In this document: positions 34,647 to 42,096 of the stretch, piece by piece | Numbering within the stretch: position 1 is the first letter of the stretch | Layout: every line of letters starts with the position of its first letter | Assembly: GCA_028874985.1 (NCBI GenBank) | Contig: JAPPGI010000174.1 | Coordinates: 1-50,483, forward strand | Reading direction: 5' to 3' | From: Gemmatimonadota bacterium | GTDB lineage: Bacteria; Gemmatimonadota; Gemmatimonadetes; Longimicrobiales; Gaopeijiaceae | Length of the DNA: 50,483 bases | Notes under the pieces: generated by a model | Databases searched by the model: none | The model's input: only the letters and a program-made list of their open reading frames with translations | Told to the model about the DNA's origin: nothing | Translations under genes and position numbers: made by a program

Positions 34647-35671
34647 CCCCGGTCACCTCCCTCCCGTCGAACCGGCCGGGGCGCGCCTTCCCTGAGTGCC
34701 CGCACCATCAGGTCGTCGTCCACGTTGCCCCCCGAGACCACCGCCACCACCACCTCGCCCGGCGACACGGGAACCCGGCCGCACATCAGCGCGGCGACCG
34801 CCGCGGCCCCCGAGGGCTCGGCCACCAGCTTCGCGCGGGTCAGCAGCAGACGCATGGCGGAGAGGATCTCCTCGTCGCGCACCAGGACCACGTCCTCGAC
34901 GAATTCGGCGACGTACCGGTAGTTCAGCTTCCCCGCCATGGGAGGCGCCAGGCCGTCGGCGATGGTATCGGTGCTCTCCAGGGTTGCGGCGCGTCCCGCC
35001 TCGATGCTCCTGTGCATGGCGGGCGCTCCCTCCGGCTCCACCCCGAACACACGCATTCGGCCGCGGCCCGCCAACCTGCCCGCCGCGGCGAGCGCCCCGG
35101 CGATCCCCGCGATGTGACCCCCCCCGCCCACCGGAACGACGACGGCCGCGCCGCCCGTGACGTCCTCGGCCACTTCGAGCCCGGTGGAACCGTGCCCGGC
35201 GATCACGGGCTCCGCGTCGAAGGGATGCAGGAAGGCGAGTCCCTCCTCGTCCGCAAGCCGCCGCGCCTCGCGGAAGGCTTCGGCCGGGGTCCCGTGGAGG
35301 AGGACTTCGGCGCCGTAGCCGGTCGCGGCCGCCACCTTTGACGGCGACGCCCCCTCAGGCATCACCACGACGGCCCGCATCCCCGCCCGCCGCGCCGCCC
35401 ATGCCACGGCCTGGGCGTGGTTCCCGGCCGAGATGGTGATCACGCCCGCGGTCCTCCGGGGCCGGGCCAGCGACGCGATCGCGTTCAGGGCGCCGCGCAC
35501 CTTGAAGGAGCCCGTCTTCTGCAGGTTCTCGCATTTCAGCCAGGCGTTCGTCCCATTCGCCCGGCCCAGCGTGCGAAAGGACAAGAGCGGGGTACGGTGG
35601 ACGCAGGCGGCCACACGGCGTCTCGCCGCCTCGAAGTCCTCCAGTGTGAGCCAATGCATCGCCTGCGCCAT
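34643..35671 (-). CDS. Serine/threonine dehydratase (no ACT domain)
   Basis: Fold type II PLP enzyme that deaminates threonine or serine to the 2-oxoacid. 342 residues. The PLP lysine is in KTGSFKVRGALNA (about 62), SAGNHAQAVAWAA follows, and the phosphate-binding VPVGGGGHIAG is at about 180; LVAEPSGAAAVAAL is near the end. It lacks the C-terminal ACT regulatory domain of biosynthetic IlvA, so a catabolic (TdcB-like) enzyme is likely, although serine racemase-like activity is not excluded. ATG 35671 and ATG 35659 are both possible starts. Divergent from the TonB-dependent receptor. Confidence 0.88.
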   Translation of the reverse strand: MAQAMHWLTLEDFEAARRRVAACVHRTPLLSFRTLGRANGTNAWLKCENLQKTGSFKVRGALNAIASLARPRRTAGVITISAGNHAQAVAWAARRAGMRAVVVMPEGASPSKVAAATGYGAEVLLHGTPAEAFREARRLADEEGLAFLHPFDAEPVIAGHGSTGLEVAEDVTGGAAVVVPVGGGGHIAGIAGALAAAGRLAGRGRMRVFGVEPEGAPAMHRSIEAGRAATLESTDTIADGLAPPMAGKLNYRYVAEFVEDVVLVRDEEILSAMRLLLTRAKLVAEPSGAAAVAALMCGRVPVSPGEVVVAVVSGGNVDDDLMVRALREGAPRPVRREGGDRG

Positions 35672-35797
35672 CCCGCGGCATGTCGGGCCGGGGCCCGGGG
35701 GCGGGGGAACCCTCCTCCGCGATTGTGTTTGCCCCCCGGATATCCTACCTTCGGCAGGACACACAACTTAGCGTCTCCCGCAGCAAGGATGGTTGCC

Positions 35798-38497
35798 ATG
35801 AGCGCCGGATCACGTCTTGTCACAGTACTTTCGGTCTCCTTCGCCATGAGTTTTCCGGCGCCGCCGGCGCTTGCACAACAGGGGGCCATCGGGGGACGGG
35901 TGACCGACGCCGAGACCGGGGAGCCGGTCGTGGGAGCGTCCGTGCAGGTCCGCGGCCAGGCGGGTTCGCAGGCGTCCGACGAAGAGGGCCGGTTCGCTCT
36001 GGAGGCATCTCCCGGGACCCACATCGTCGTCGTGACCATTATCGGCTACGAGACCGCCTGGGTCGACGGCGTGGATGTGACGCCGGGGCGCACGACCGAG
36101 CTGAACATCGCGCTGCGCTCCCGTGCGCTGGTGCTGAATCCGGTGGTCGTGACGGTGTCGCGCCGCCAGGAAAAGGCGCTCGACGCCCCCGCCTCCGTCT
36201 CCACGGTCTCCGCCGACGAGATCGCGAGAATCGCGGCCGTCACGGTGGCGGATCACGTCCAGACGCTCCCCGGCGTCGACCGGGCCCAGACGGGGCTGGC
36301 CCAGAGCACCGTGGTGGCCCGCGGCTTCAACAACGTCTTCTCCGGCACGCTGCTCACGATTATCGACAACCGCTACGCGCGGGTTCCGTCGCTCCGCTTC
36401 AACGCCTACAGCATGTTCCCGACCACGGACCTCGACATCGACCGCATCGAGGTTTCGCTGGGCCCGGGCGCGGCCCTCTACGGCCCCAACGCAGCGTCGG
36501 GCGTCATGCACCTTATCACCTCGTCTCCCCTGGACAGACAGGGCTCGTCGATCTCGCTCGCCGGCGGGGAACGGTCACTCTTCCACGCCCAGTTCCGCAC
36601 GGCCCACGCCCCTTCCGAGAACTTCGGGCTGAAGATTTCCGGGCAGTACATGCGAGGGAACGACTGGGAGTACGATGACCCGGTGGAAGCGGACGCTCGC
36701 AAAGCCGATCCCACGATCCCCGGGCGGGACTATGCGAGCCAACGGTACTCCGTTGACGCGCGCGTCGATTTCCGCGTCGCCGACGACGGGGACCTCGTGC
36801 TTAACGGCGGAATCTCGACCCTTGCCAGCGGAGTGGAGATGACCGGAATCGGCGCCTTCCAGGTCAAGAACTGGGGGTACAACTACTTCCAGTCCAGATT
36901 CTCCAAGGGCCGTCTCTTCGGCCAGTTCTTCCTCAACATGACGAACTCCGGGTCCGAGGCCGGCGCCACCTCCCGCGAAGGCACCTTCGGACTGCGGAGC
37001 GGAGAGCCCGTCGTCGACCAGTCCCACACCATGGCGGCCCAGTTCCAGTACGGCTTCGACGTGGGTTCCCGGCAGAGCTTCACCTACGGCGTGGACTGGC
37101 AGAGGACCGAGCCCAGCACCGGCGGCACGATCAACGGGGACAACGAAGACGACGACATCATCTCCGAGATCGGGGGTTACGTGCACTCGGAGACCTCTCT
37201 GGCTGACAGGGTGGACCTGGTCACGGCCGTCCGCATCGACAACCACAGCCGTCTGGGCGACGTGAACATCTCGCCCCGCGCCGCCCTGGTCTTCAAGCCC
37301 GCGGAACACCAGAACTTCCGGCTCACCTACAACCGCGCCTTCGGGACTCCGACCAGCAGCAACCTCTTCCTGGACATCGAAGCGTCGAAGCTGCCTCCGC
37401 CCATAGACTTCTTCGCGGTGCGGGCGCGCGGGGTGCCCGCGACCGGATACACCTTTTCGCGGGAGTGCGAGGGGGGATTCATGTCCCGCTGCATGCGTAC
37501 CCCCGTCGCACCCGGACAGGAGCTTCCGGCCTCGGCGCCGCTGCTCTGGAATGCCCTCCTCGAACTGGCGGCGGCGGCGGATCCCCGGATAAACGCCATA
37601 AAGGCCCTGCTCGAGAATCCGGGTGCCCTCGAAGACGATCCCGCGCTGGGTACCGTGCTGAGGCGGCTCGACATCGACGGACAGGTGTTCCTGCTGGACA
37701 CCGCCGGTCCCGCCGATGTCGACCCACTCGAGTCCACCATTCACACGACCTACGAGGCCGGCTACAAGGGGTTGCTGGGCAACCGCGTGCGGTTCGCCGC
37801 CGACGTGTACTTCGCGAACATCCAGAATTTCGTCGGACCCCTGCGCGTCGAGACGCCCAACGTCTTCCTCGAACCCGTTTCCACGGGCGCCTTCGTTCTG
37901 AACCGCCTCCGACTTCTGATTCAGCTGGGCCAGATGACCGTGGAGGAGGCGCAGGCAATCGCCGCCCTGTTCGCGGGGGTGCCGGTCGGCACCATCGTGC
38001 CGGACCAGGTCGGCGATCACAACCTCATGGTGACCTACCGCAACTTCGGCAAGGTCGACTACTGGGGAGCCGACCTGGCGGCGCAGGTCCTGGTCTCGGA
38101 CCGGCTGCGGATCAACCTCAACTACTCCATGGTGAGCGCCGACTGCTTCTTCGGCGATAACAAGGACGGCAAGTGCCTCGGCCAGTCCGACATCGCGCTG
38201 AACGCCCCGAAGGGCAAGGGGTCTGTCGGGTTCACCTTCGACGACCGTGCCGCGGGGCTGTCGCTGCAGGGACGCGTGCGTATGACCGGCGAGTTTCCCA
38301 TGAATTCCGGCGTGTACCGCGGAACGGTGGACGCGTACTCGGTCGTGGACGCATCGATCGGCTACAGGCTGCCCTTCCAGCCCGGGACCCGCGTATCGCT
38401 GACCGCCAACAACATCGGCGACAACATGCACCGGGAGTTCGTCGGAGCCCCGGAAGTGGGCCGGCTTCTCCTGCTCCGCGTGCAGCACGACTTCTGA
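35798..38497 (+). CDS. TonB-dependent receptor with carboxypeptidase-regulatory-like domain
   Basis: Outer-membrane active transporter. 899 residues from ATG 35798 (AAGGA eight bases upstream; ATG 35789 alternative). Signal peptide about 1-29 (ending PPALAQQ), then a CarboxypepD-regulatory-like domain (about 30-110, GGRVTDAETGEPVVGASVQV), the plug (about 115-240, DAPASVSTVSADEIAR, VEVSLGPGAALYGPNAASGV), and a beta barrel to the C-terminal aromatic residue in LLLRVQHDF. Cargo cannot be told; no SusD partner, siderophore genes or cobalamin riboswitch are next to it. A long loop at about 550-650 contains two Cys pairs. argR begins 24 bases downstream and could share the transcript. Confidence 0.93.
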   Translation: MSAGSRLVTVLSVSFAMSFPAPPALAQQGAIGGRVTDAETGEPVVGASVQVRGQAGSQASDEEGRFALEASPGTHIVVVTIIGYETAWVDGVDVTPGRTTELNIALRSRALVLNPVVVTVSRRQEKALDAPASVSTVSADEIARIAAVTVADHVQTLPGVDRAQTGLAQSTVVARGFNNVFSGTLLTIIDNRYARVPSLRFNAYSMFPTTDLDIDRIEVSLGPGAALYGPNAASGVMHLITSSPLDRQGSSISLAGGERSLFHAQFRTAHAPSENFGLKISGQYMRGNDWEYDDPVEADARKADPTIPGRDYASQRYSVDARVDFRVADDGDLVLNGGISTLASGVEMTGIGAFQVKNWGYNYFQSRFSKGRLFGQFFLNMTNSGSEAGATSREGTFGLRSGEPVVDQSHTMAAQFQYGFDVGSRQSFTYGVDWQRTEPSTGGTINGDNEDDDIISEIGGYVHSETSLADRVDLVTAVRIDNHSRLGDVNISPRAALVFKPAEHQNFRLTYNRAFGTPTSSNLFLDIEASKLPPPIDFFAVRARGVPATGYTFSRECEGGFMSRCMRTPVAPGQELPASAPLLWNALLELAAAADPRINAIKALLENPGALEDDPALGTVLRRLDIDGQVFLLDTAGPADVDPLESTIHTTYEAGYKGLLGNRVRFAADVYFANIQNFVGPLRVETPNVFLEPVSTGAFVLNRLRLLIQLGQMTVEEAQAIAALFAGVPVGTIVPDQVGDHNLMVTYRNFGKVDYWGADLAAQVLVSDRLRINLNYSMVSADCFFGDNKDGKCLGQSDIALNAPKGKGSVGFTFDDRAAGLSLQGRVRMTGEFPMNSGVYRGTVDAYSVVDASIGYRLPFQPGTRVSLTANNIGDNMHREFVGAPEVGRLLLLRVQHDF

Positions 38498-38521: not shown

Positions 38522-38983
38522 GTGAAATCCGGAAGTAAGCGGCGGCGGCAGGCCCGGGTGCTCAGGATCATCCGCGAGCGCCGGGTCCCGCACCAGGAAG
38601 CCCTGCGCGAACTCCTCGCCGCGGAGGGCTTCGGGGTGGCGCAGGCCACCCTGTCGCGCGACATCCGGGACCTGCGTCTGGTCAAGGTGGTCGGCGCCGA
38701 CGGGAAGCCGCACTACACGCTGCCCGAGGAGTGGGAGCACGTCGCCCCGCTGGACTCGATCCTGCCGACCCTCTTCGTAGGGGCCGAGACCGTGGGCAAC
38801 CTCCTCGTCGTCAGGACGCTGAACGGGGCGGCGCAGGCGGTGGCGTCGGGGATCGACTGGGAGGAGTTCGAAGGGTTGGCCGGAACCATCGCCGGCGACG
38901 ACACCGTGCTGGTGATTCTCCGTGACCCACATGCCGCGGCGGAGGTCGCCGCGACGATCAGGGAGCTGGCCGGTGAACGCTGA
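38522..38983 (+). CDS. argR: Arginine repressor ArgR
   Basis: Arginine-responsive hexameric repressor of arginine biosynthesis. 153 residues from GTG 38522. N-terminal winged helix with QATLSRDIRDLRLVKV (about 40-56) and C-terminal oligomerisation/arginine-binding domain with GTIAGDDTVLVILRD (about 119-133), including the paired Asp that contacts arginine. Length is normal. It sits directly before the argG promoter, where an AT-rich inverted repeat looks like its operator. Confidence 0.95.
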   Translation: MKSGSKRRRQARVLRIIRERRVPHQEALRELLAAEGFGVAQATLSRDIRDLRLVKVVGADGKPHYTLPEEWEHVAPLDSILPTLFVGAETVGNLLVVRTLNGAAQAVASGIDWEEFEGLAGTIAGDDTVLVILRDPHAAAEVAATIRELAGER

Positions 38984-39123: not shown

Positions 39124-39152
39124 TTGACGGTCACGAGCGTGATGCATATTAT
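39124..39152 (+). promoter_or_regulatory. Near-consensus sigma-70 promoter of argG
   Basis: TTGACG (39124-39129), exactly 17 bases, TATTAT (39147-39152). Predicted transcription start about 39159, leader of about 158 bases to the argG GTG. The best promoter in the window, inside the 333-base argR-argG gap. Confidence 0.7.
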
Positions 39153-39180
39153 TCCACGGAAGTTGGAATATTATTTTTCC
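39141..39180. promoter_or_regulatory. Presumed ArgR operator (two ARG-box-like elements)
   Basis: A sharply AT-rich patch in GC-rich surroundings. TATTCCA (39150-39156) and TGGAATA (39164-39170) are perfect inverted repeats seven bases apart; extended outwards, 10 of 11 positions match. Each half also resembles an 18-bp ARG box: TGCATATTATTCCA (39143-39156) and GGAA..TTCC (39165-39180), centred about 23 bp apart, close to the 21 bp usual for paired ARG boxes. It covers the -10 and the start point of the argG promoter, a position fit for repression. Confidence 0.55.
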
Positions 39181-39316
39181 GGTTCCGGAACCGACAAGCG
39201 GGTTCGGAGCATGGGGATCTGGCAGTTCCGTACGGCCTTGGCGGGAGACGTACGGCCCCCGTGTTCCGGCCCGTGTCCGGTTCGGGGACGCAGGCGACAC
39301 GGAGTGCCGGAAGGCC

Positions 39317-40609
39317 GTGAAGATCGTACTGGGATACTCGGGCGGACTCGACACGTCGGTGATCGTGCCCTGGCTGGGAGAGAACTATCGGGCCGGGGTC
39401 GTCTGCATGGCGGCCGACGTGGGACAGCGCGGCGGAGTGGGCCTGCTGGCGGGGAAGGCCTTCGCCACCGGTGCCTGCGCATTCCACGGCGAGGACCTGA
39501 GGGAGGAATTCCTGACGGACTACGTCCTGCCCGTGCTGCGGGCGGGTGCCGTGTACAGCCGGAAGTACCTGCTCGGCACCGCCATGGCCCGGCCCCTGAT
39601 CTCGCGCCGCATGGTGGAGATCGCACGGCGCACGGGAGCGGGTGCCCTGGCCCACGGCTGTACCGGCAAGGGGAACGACCAGCTGCGCTTCGAGCTGTCC
39701 TTCGCCGCTCTCGCCCCCGATCTGAAGGTGATCGCTCCGTGGAGGGAGTGGGACATCGCCTCGCGGGAGGACGCCTTCGCCTACGCACGCGCCCGGGGAA
39801 TCTCGCTGGAGGGCGTAGACGCCGAGAAGCTCTACTCACGCGACGAGAACCTGTGGCATATCAGTCACGAGGGCGGTCCCCTGGAGGACCCGGCCAACGC
39901 TCCGGGACCCGATGTCTTCGTCTGGACGCGTGACCCCGTGGACGCGCCCGACAGGCCCCTCGAACTCGAACTCGGCTTCGAGGCGGGCGTGCCGGTGACG
40001 ATCGATGGACGCCCCCTGTCGCCGCTGCCTCTGCTCCTCGAGCTCAACGAGGCGGGGTCCGAGCACGGAGTGGGCCGGGCCGACGTCGTCGAGGACCGGG
40101 TCGTCGGGATCAAGTCGCGGGGTGTCTACGAGACCCCGGGAGGGACGATCCTGCTGGCCGCGATCCAGGAGCTCGAGCAGCTTGTGCTGTCGCGCGGCGC
40201 GCTGGCGCTGAAGGACCGGCTGGCTCCCCTCTACGCCGATCTGGTATACGAAGGACGGTGGTGGACGCCCGAGAGGGAGGCCCTCGACGCAATGGTGGAC
40301 TCCCTGATGGGCAACGTGACCGGCACGGTGCGGCTGCGCCTCTACAAGGGGCAGGCGACTGTCGTGTCACGGTCCGCGCCCGCGTCGCTGTACGACCTCG
40401 ACCTCGCCTCTTTCGGTGCCTGCGAGGGCTATGCGCACTCGGACTCCTCGGGCTTCGTCAAGCTCTTCAGCCTGTCCCAGCGTGCGCTGTCGGCGCAGTC
40501 GACGGCTGCACCCGGGCCCGCGGCCCTTCCCCGGCGGGCGAAGCCGGCCGGATCCGTCCAGCCGGTCCGGACGTCCTCCGCGGCGCCGGTCCACGCGCAC
40601 GCCGACTGA
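39317..40609 (+). CDS. argG: Argininosuccinate synthase
   Basis: Joins citrulline and aspartate with ATP in arginine synthesis. 430 residues from GTG 39317; typical enzymes have about 400. The N-type ATP-binding loop YSGGLDTSV is at 7-15, SRKYLLGTAMARPLIS at about 76, HGCTGKGNDQLRFE at about 114, DENLWHISHEGG at about 175. The last 40 residues (after LFSLSQRALSAQ) are a Pro/Ala/Ser-rich tail absent from most homologues. argH follows 50-100 bases on, depending on its start. Confidence 0.96.
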   Translation: MKIVLGYSGGLDTSVIVPWLGENYRAGVVCMAADVGQRGGVGLLAGKAFATGACAFHGEDLREEFLTDYVLPVLRAGAVYSRKYLLGTAMARPLISRRMVEIARRTGAGALAHGCTGKGNDQLRFELSFAALAPDLKVIAPWREWDIASREDAFAYARARGISLEGVDAEKLYSRDENLWHISHEGGPLEDPANAPGPDVFVWTRDPVDAPDRPLELELGFEAGVPVTIDGRPLSPLPLLLELNEAGSEHGVGRADVVEDRVVGIKSRGVYETPGGTILLAAIQELEQLVLSRGALALKDRLAPLYADLVYEGRWWTPEREALDAMVDSLMGNVTGTVRLRLYKGQATVVSRSAPASLYDLDLASFGACEGYAHSDSSGFVKLFSLSQRALSAQSTAAPGPAALPRRAKPAGSVQPVRTSSAAPVHAHAD

Positions 40610-40713
40610 CCGCGCTGGACGGACACCCTCCCTCCCCGGCCTCCGGTGATCCGGGAGACACGGGGGGGCATGCCCTCTGGGGCGGGCGCTCCGAGGGCGG
40701 TCTGGCGAGCGAG

Positions 40714-42096
40714 ATGGAGGCGTTGAACCGGTCCCTCGATGTGGACTGGCGCCTCTGGGCCCACGACATACGCGGGAGCCGCGCGTGGGCCCGGGGGCTC
40801 GAGCGGGCGGGGATCCTGTCGCGGGGGGAAGCCCGGCGGATCGACCTCGGCCTGGCGGCCGTCGCCCGCCGGCTCGAGGCTCTGTCCGGGCCCGAAGGAC
40901 TGCCGGAAGAGGACATCCACACCGTCGTGGAGAGGATGCTGATCGAGGAAGTCGGCGACCTGGGGGGCAAGCTCCACACCGGACGGTCCCGCAACGACCA
41001 GGTCGCGACCGATTTCCGGCTGTGGGCGAAGGACGCGATCCGCGCGCTCCGGGGCCGGGTGGCCGCGCTGGTCGAAGCGCTCGCAGCGAAGGCGCGTGCG
41101 ACCACCGGAGTCCTGATGCCCGGCTACACGCACCTGCAGCAGGCGCAGCCGGTGCCGGCCGCCCATTGGCTGCTGTCGCGGGCCTGGCCGCTGGTCAGGG
41201 ACCTGGAACACTACGGTGCGGCGCTTCGGGAGTGCGATGTCCTTCCCCTGGGCTCGGGGGCGGTCGCGGGTTGCCCGTTCGCGATCGACCGGGAGGCGCT
41301 GGCGGCCGACCTCGGCTTCGCACGCGTCTCCCGGAACTCCATCGACGGCGTCTCCGACCGCGACTGGGCAGCGCGCCTTCTCTTCGGCACGGCCATGACA
41401 GGCGTGCATGTATCCCAGTTCGCCGAGGATCTGGTCCTCTTCTCCAGCAGCGAGTTCGGCTTCGTGCGCTTGGGCGACGGCCATACGACGGGGTCGTCGC
41501 TCATGCCCCAGAAGCGCAACCCGGACGTGGCCGAACTGGCGCGCGGGAAGTCCGGGCGCCTGGTCGGGAACCTCGTGGGGATGCTCACCGTGCTGAAGGG
41601 ATTGCCGACCGGCTACAACCGCGATCTGCAGGAAGACAAGGAGGCGGTCTTCGACTCGGTGGACACGCTTGCCGTCGTCCTGCCGGCGCTCACGGGTGCC
41701 GTGGACGGCATGTCCCTCGACCGGGCCCGCATCTCCCGGGCGCTTCGTCCCGAAGTGCTGGCCACCGACCTGGCCGACTACCTGGTGCGCACCGGCGTGC
41801 CCTTCCGCGAAGCCCACCGGGCCGCCGCGGCGGTCGTCCGAGCCGCGGAGGGGGCGGGCAAGGACATTCACCGGCTCACGCTGGAGCAGATGCGTGCCGT
41901 CCACCCGGGATTCTCCGAGGATGTCTTCGAGGTGTTCGACCCGGTCGTATCGGCAGAGTCGCGGGGGGGTGCGGGCGGCACCTCGGCGGCGGCGCTGGAG
42001 CGGCAGTTGGCTGCCCTCGCCGGAGCCATGTCCGAAGCCGGAGGCGACGACGGGAATACGCCGCCCCGACTGGTGACCGGCCCGCGCGGCGGGTAG
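40714..42096 (+). CDS. argH: Argininosuccinate lyase; start codon unresolved
   Basis: Splits argininosuccinate into arginine and fumarate. From the first canonical in-frame start, ATG 40714, the product is 460 residues. The lyase signature GSSLMPQKRNPDVAEL (about 267), GRSRNDQVATDFRLW (about 91) and TGYNRDLQEDKE are intact. However, the frame directly upstream (40672-40713) encodes ALWGGRSEGGLASE, the conserved N-terminus of the family, and no ATG, GTG or TTG lies in frame before it. An ATG at 40670 is one base out of frame. Either initiation uses a near-cognate codon, or a base is missing between 40672 and 40675. The C-terminus carries an extra tail of about 25 residues. Confidence 0.93.
   Translation: MEALNRSLDVDWRLWAHDIRGSRAWARGLERAGILSRGEARRIDLGLAAVARRLEALSGPEGLPEEDIHTVVERMLIEEVGDLGGKLHTGRSRNDQVATDFRLWAKDAIRALRGRVAALVEALAAKARATTGVLMPGYTHLQQAQPVPAAHWLLSRAWPLVRDLEHYGAALRECDVLPLGSGAVAGCPFAIDREALAADLGFARVSRNSIDGVSDRDWAARLLFGTAMTGVHVSQFAEDLVLFSSSEFGFVRLGDGHTTGSSLMPQKRNPDVAELARGKSGRLVGNLVGMLTVLKGLPTGYNRDLQEDKEAVFDSVDTLAVVLPALTGAVDGMSLDRARISRALRPEVLATDLADYLVRTGVPFREAHRAAAAVVRAAEGAGKDIHRLTLEQMRAVHPGFSEDVFEVFDPVVSAESRGGAGGTSAAALERQLAALAGAMSEAGGDDGNTPPRLVTGPRGG

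Follow-up and report, generated by a model that had tools for sequence, protein, structure and literature searches.

In Escherichia coli, the hexameric arginine repressor ArgR binds two 18-bp ARG boxes with 3 bp between them, and in highly repressible genes these boxes overlap the promoter, as described in PMC6640053. The locus studied here, from a Gemmatimonadota bacterium and located in a window that comprises the whole analyzed stretch of 50,483 bases, displays a comparable organization upstream of argG, with a conserved structured RNA between the putative operator and the gene. The explanation that we favor, with a probability of roughly 90%, is that of an ArgR operator lying over the argG(H) promoter, together with a leader RNA that probably acts after initiation or stabilizes the mRNA.

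The gene immediately upstream is argR (38522–38983, plus strand, GTG start), which encodes a protein of 153 amino acids that contains both the winged-helix and the C-terminal oligomerization domains of ArgR repressors (PF01316, 66.0 bits, and PF02863, 76.4 bits; both above cut-off), and the first-pass annotation was thus right in placing argR there. The score against the NCBIfam equivalog TIGR01529 is 127.1 bits, slightly below the cut-off of 130.45. The protein aligns over its full length with solved arginine repressors, its nearest solved relatives, and keeps the GTIAGDDT stretch. A long open reading frame (35417–38497), which by eye resembles a TonB-dependent receptor, stops 24 bases before argR, and the two may be co-transcribed. 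Downstream, on the plus strand, lie argG, encoding argininosuccinate synthase (39317–40609, GTG start; TIGR00032, 430 bits; PF00764 and PF20979), and argH, encoding argininosuccinate lyase (40675–42096; TIGR00838, 531.5 bits), for which position 40675 is the approximate start of the model match and the gene start is not fixed. Among the 23 genomes of the genus, argF scores above cut-off in 22, carA in 21 and argC in 18, the window's own genome having no argC over cut-off; no match to ArgJ was found in any of the 23. Given the lack of an argC over cut-off in the window genome and of ArgJ in the genus, the early arginine pathway may have been lost or replaced. G010, alone in the genus in having no argR, also has no argG, a point in favor of ArgR acting at argG.

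The argG promoter, TTGACG-N17-TATTAT (39124–39152, plus strand), consists of a -35 element at 39124–39129, a 17-base spacer (39130–39146) and a -10 element at 39147–39152. It matches 10 of the 12 sigma-70 consensus bases, more than any other site in the window (eight reach 9), in agreement with the initial claim that no better promoter is present. In 10 kb, three promoter-like sites were counted, against 0.5 in shuffled sequence. The -35 element reads TTGAC in 16 and TTGCC in 2 of 20 argR–argG intergenic regions of the genus, and two genus members (L018 and L019) have no recognizable -35 in this set. The G+C content of the window is 69.5%, and its highest A+T peak, 27 of 38 bases, starts at 39140–39142. 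The unstranded inverted repeat TATTCCA-N7-TGGAATA (39150–39170) has its arms at 39150–39156 and 39164–39170 and its N7 loop at 39157–39163; the positions first given for promoter and repeat were confirmed on the sequence. Among 52 inverted repeats in the window with 7-base arms and loops of 5–9 bases, it is the only one with at least five A/T bases per arm. A promoter-like TTGTCG-N16-AATAAT on the minus strand (39197–39170) points in the opposite direction from the same AT-rich patch.

The repeat is formed by the right half of one ARG-box-like element and the left half of another. Box 1 (39141–39158, plus strand; core TGCATATTATTCCA at 39143–39156) covers the -10 element, and box 2 (39162–39179, plus strand; core TGGAATATTATTTT at 39164–39177) lies just past the presumed start point. 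With both boxes extended to 18 bp, the gap is 3 bp and the period 21 bp, rather than the spacing of about 23 bp proposed at first. Conservation was assessed on argR–argG intergenic regions from 20 genomes including the window's own, with the region upstream of argG used for G015 and G022, and the fragments L222 and L226 were left out of the box-pair test at argG. Paired ARG-box-like 14-mers precede argG in all 22 argG-bearing genomes of the genus, at a period of 21 in 21 of them and of 20 in G008, and for each of the 22 pairs none of 100 local shuffles scores as well; box 1 is kept throughout. The corresponding boxes of the relatives are TGCATATTATTTCA and TGCATATTATT, or close variants of these. 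Box 2 has drifted in the window species, with a matrix score of -8.3, whereas the 18 scored relatives range from 1.1 to 17.7. Its drift to TGGAATATTATTTT is what created the striking inverted repeat, which makes the exact repeat species-specific: it occurs in 1 of the 20 intergenic regions, that of the window species, whereas the tandem boxes occur in all 20. Judged by this pattern, the tandem boxes are what selection keeps, and not the exact inverted repeat that had been taken for the conserved unit. Palindromic boxes about 21 bp apart that overlap the promoter of an arginine gene, with the -10 inside box 1 before argG, are the features of an ArgR/AhrC operator. The first-pass reading of an ArgR operator overlapping the argG promoter is therefore supported, as is its suggestion that the site defines the ARG box of the lineage, which is TGCATATTATTTCA-like.

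We infer that ArgR binds and represses at 39141–39179. The two boxes overlie the -10 element and the probable start of the argG(H) promoter, and when arginine is plentiful, arginine-bound hexameric ArgR, supplied by the adjoining upstream gene, would occupy both boxes and block RNA polymerase. When arginine is scarce, ArgR would leave and argG and argH would be transcribed, presumably together. Repression by promoter occlusion is proposed because of the geometry of boxes and promoter and because of what is known of ArgR. Transcription of argG would start near 39159, so that the mRNA leader would carry the structured RNA at about 39180–39290. The degenerate box 2 of the window species, the TIGR01529 score slightly under the cut-off, the unrecognizable -35 elements of L018 and L019, and the lack of box pairs at argC, argF and carA, which is unusual for ArgR, were counted against this explanation.

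The target set of the repressor appears to be unusually narrow. Across the 23 genus genomes the pattern TGNATAWTNWTNCA has 20 matches, of which 17 are the argG operator site, while the reversed pattern, used as a control, has 4; in the window genome, its sole match is box 1 before argG. Similar sites before other arginine genes, to which the first-pass annotation had looked for confirmation, are absent: with the criterion that a pair be equalled by at most 1 of 100 shuffles, no box pair was found upstream of argC (0 of 17), argF (0 of 22) or carA (0 of 18), incomplete loci (L053 for argC; L113, L115 and L130 for carA) being left out. Sites before several arginine genes are a usual trait of ArgR regulons, and do not define an individual operator. 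Because conservation of the argG site is so strong, the absence is read as a one-target ArgR and not as a refutation; and because the box pattern matches nowhere else in the window genome, ArgR looks dedicated to argG(H), its regulon reduced to one target. Two weaker box-like matches in the window genome (L160 and L165) have flanks in which, as read from their sequence, nothing suggests arginine genes. Relatives also have two box-like sites at a distance from argG (L230, G008:C21:29359; L161, G006:C133:7289), and in G010, though it is devoid of argR and argG, TGCATATTGTTGCA (L234, G010:C61:49714–49727) fits the box pattern perfectly.

Outside the genus, 6 of the 25 argG upstream regions from the rest of the order have a box pair equalled by at most 5 of 100 shuffles; argR lies in the same examined stretch in 5 of the 25 regions, 4 of which have such a pair, as against 2 of the 20 that lack argR there. 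Locus L031 of G057 also has a box pair before argG, and in one of these cases, G026, the score depends on one good box. These data bear on the alternative that the patch amounts to no more than a promoter rich in A+T whose inverted repeat arose by chance, ArgR acting elsewhere or being inactive. Such an arrangement would agree with the lack of boxes at argC, argF and carA and with the poor conservation of the exact repeat, but we hold it to be highly unlikely in view of the strict 21-bp period (20 bp in one genome) and the box letters, common to all 22 genomes, and of the boxes that other genera have where argR and argG are neighbors. The reading of 39141–39179 as an ordinary ArgR operator, with a box sequence of its own and unusually few targets, is well supported by these comparisons.

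When the intergenic regions of the genus were aligned, a leader RNA block, missed by the first-pass annotation, surfaced downstream of the operator. Its core (39200–39272, plus strand) is composed of a helix P1, pairing 39200–39214 with 39259–39272, topped by a helix P2, pairing 39228–39234 with 39249–39255, and centers on a nearly invariant 26-base hairpin sequence, the apical hairpin itself spanning 39231–39253 on the plus strand. The alignment (A1) contains 21 sequences, 20 of them distinct, and yields a fold of 24 pairs, 11 of which have both partners changed in at least one sequence. A total of 98.3% of the alignment cells are paired, compared with only 32.8–44.3% in all slid controls; no shuffle out of 500 matches the pairing on four of five measures, and 6 do so on the fifth. 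On the ArgG+ArgR tree the pairs require 44 state changes. A covarying structure in a 5' leader, a feature of riboswitches, is therefore present. A model of the RNA (R1) gives the core 89.1 bits, and the window leader folds more stably than its shuffles (z -2.5). A less certain outer helix, P0 (about 39180–39195 with 39275–39290, plus strand), extends the element between operator and argG to 39180–39290; own flanks pair better than swapped partners, with 11 of 5000 permutations as good.

The block is rich in G+C and stem-like, which makes a DNA cruciform or protein site conceivable, and in some species at least one reading frame runs open through it. That its conservation reflects a DNA-level palindrome or a coding stretch is nevertheless extremely improbable. 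With pair 55–60 left out, G-U cells outnumber A-C cells 42 to 5, a strand-specific wobble that points to an RNA of the argG-sense strand; the pairing measures exceed at least 494 of 500 shuffles and all slid controls; and the length of the joining segment ranges between 9 and 17 nt, so that the block is not coding in a shared frame.

Within the genus, a model search found one strong copy of the RNA in each of 21 of the 23 genomes. All 21 precede argG, 19 as seen in the intergenic alignment and those of G015 and G022 by their coordinates, and a further record (L071), which judging by its contig is apparently not one of these genomes, carries the core with the argG start 43 bases past it. The RNA is missing from G010, without argR and argG, and from G008, where the promoter is closer to argG and the leader shorter. 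A scan of 395 genomes from 138 genera of the phylum, with stricter filters that lose weak matches, detected it in 21 genomes, all of one genus; weak model matches in G029 and G033 (E about 0.05), neither present at E 0.01, were not counted. Phyla beyond Gemmatimonadota were searched with the exact 26-base core only, which among 84,980 species (one genome each) retrieved 12 stretches, all from metagenome-assembled genomes with Gemmatimonadetes, Gemmatimonadota or Longimicrobiales in their titles. In Rfam 15 the best match to the window leader has an E-value of 2, and none of 12 loci has a match at E 0.1. Literature searches returned neither an ArgR operator in Gemmatimonadota nor an argG leader RNA, which is weak evidence of absence with most subscription journals outside their scope. 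The leader RNA is thus a new candidate family, absent from Rfam.

Because of its position, single copy and constancy, we think that the RNA probably gives argG a second layer of control after initiation, or stabilizes its mRNA. A metabolite-sensing riboswitch, acting with ArgR on argG and responding to arginine, citrulline or another substrate or product of ArgG, is possible, though we consider it rather unlikely. The nearly invariant hairpin on a covarying stem, present as one strong copy per genome and always before argG, would suit it, as would the fact that both genus genomes without the RNA differ, one lacking argG and the other having the shorter leader. Neither the RNA loop nor the 3' strand of P1, however, shows any signal of conserved alternative pairing with the Shine-Dalgarno region over 21 leaders (mean z -0.05 and 0.19); the argG leader yielded no terminator-like site; and within the sampled phylum the RNA is limited to a single genus, whereas most known riboswitch classes are not so restricted. 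In the window, the P1 3' strand is complementary to the ribosome site of argG in a way that looks switch-like by eye; this candidate was rejected, the 21 leaders giving no such signal. Because neither a terminator nor sequestration of the Shine-Dalgarno was found, the RNA is not filed as a riboswitch; other platforms are possible.

To a role as a protein-binding site, or as a structure that stabilizes the mRNA or enhances its translation, with no small-molecule ligand, we give a little under an even chance. In keeping with this role, sequence conservation is concentrated in a single hairpin, the stem and the 9–17 nt joining segment being variable; any partner protein is putative. We rate protein binding or stabilization no less likely than a metabolite riboswitch. 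A bolder proposal, which we regard as doubtful, has a new aptamer, restricted to the genus, sensing an arginine-pathway metabolite from within the argG leader, in series with the one-target ArgR; if true, argininosuccinate synthase alone would be doubly controlled, the other pathway genes examined having no ArgR sites.

From this locus a little-studied phylum gains a defined ARG box and an ArgR that seems dedicated to a single promoter, along with a well-supported RNA structure, absent from Rfam, ahead of a gene for amino-acid biosynthesis. Small in size, conspicuously invariant in its core and plainly missing from G008, the RNA lends itself to direct tests of its role. Compared with riboswitches and other cis-regulatory leader RNAs, it has no Rfam match, occurs in one genus and shows no expression platform, but shares with them a structured, conserved 5' leader before a biosynthesis gene. 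The window ArgR, here known from its sequence, is homologous over both domains to PDB entries 1b4a, 1f9n and 3ere, which we take to be AhrC/ArgR of Bacillus-type bacteria and ArgR of Mycobacterium. The ARG box of E. coli has a TGAAT-type consensus; the letters here are TGCATATTATTTCA, box 2 is degenerate, and argC, argF and carA have no similar site. The architecture itself corresponds to the tandem ARG boxes of E. coli in the two 18-bp semi-palindromic boxes, their 3-bp separation and their overlap with the promoter (PMC6640053).
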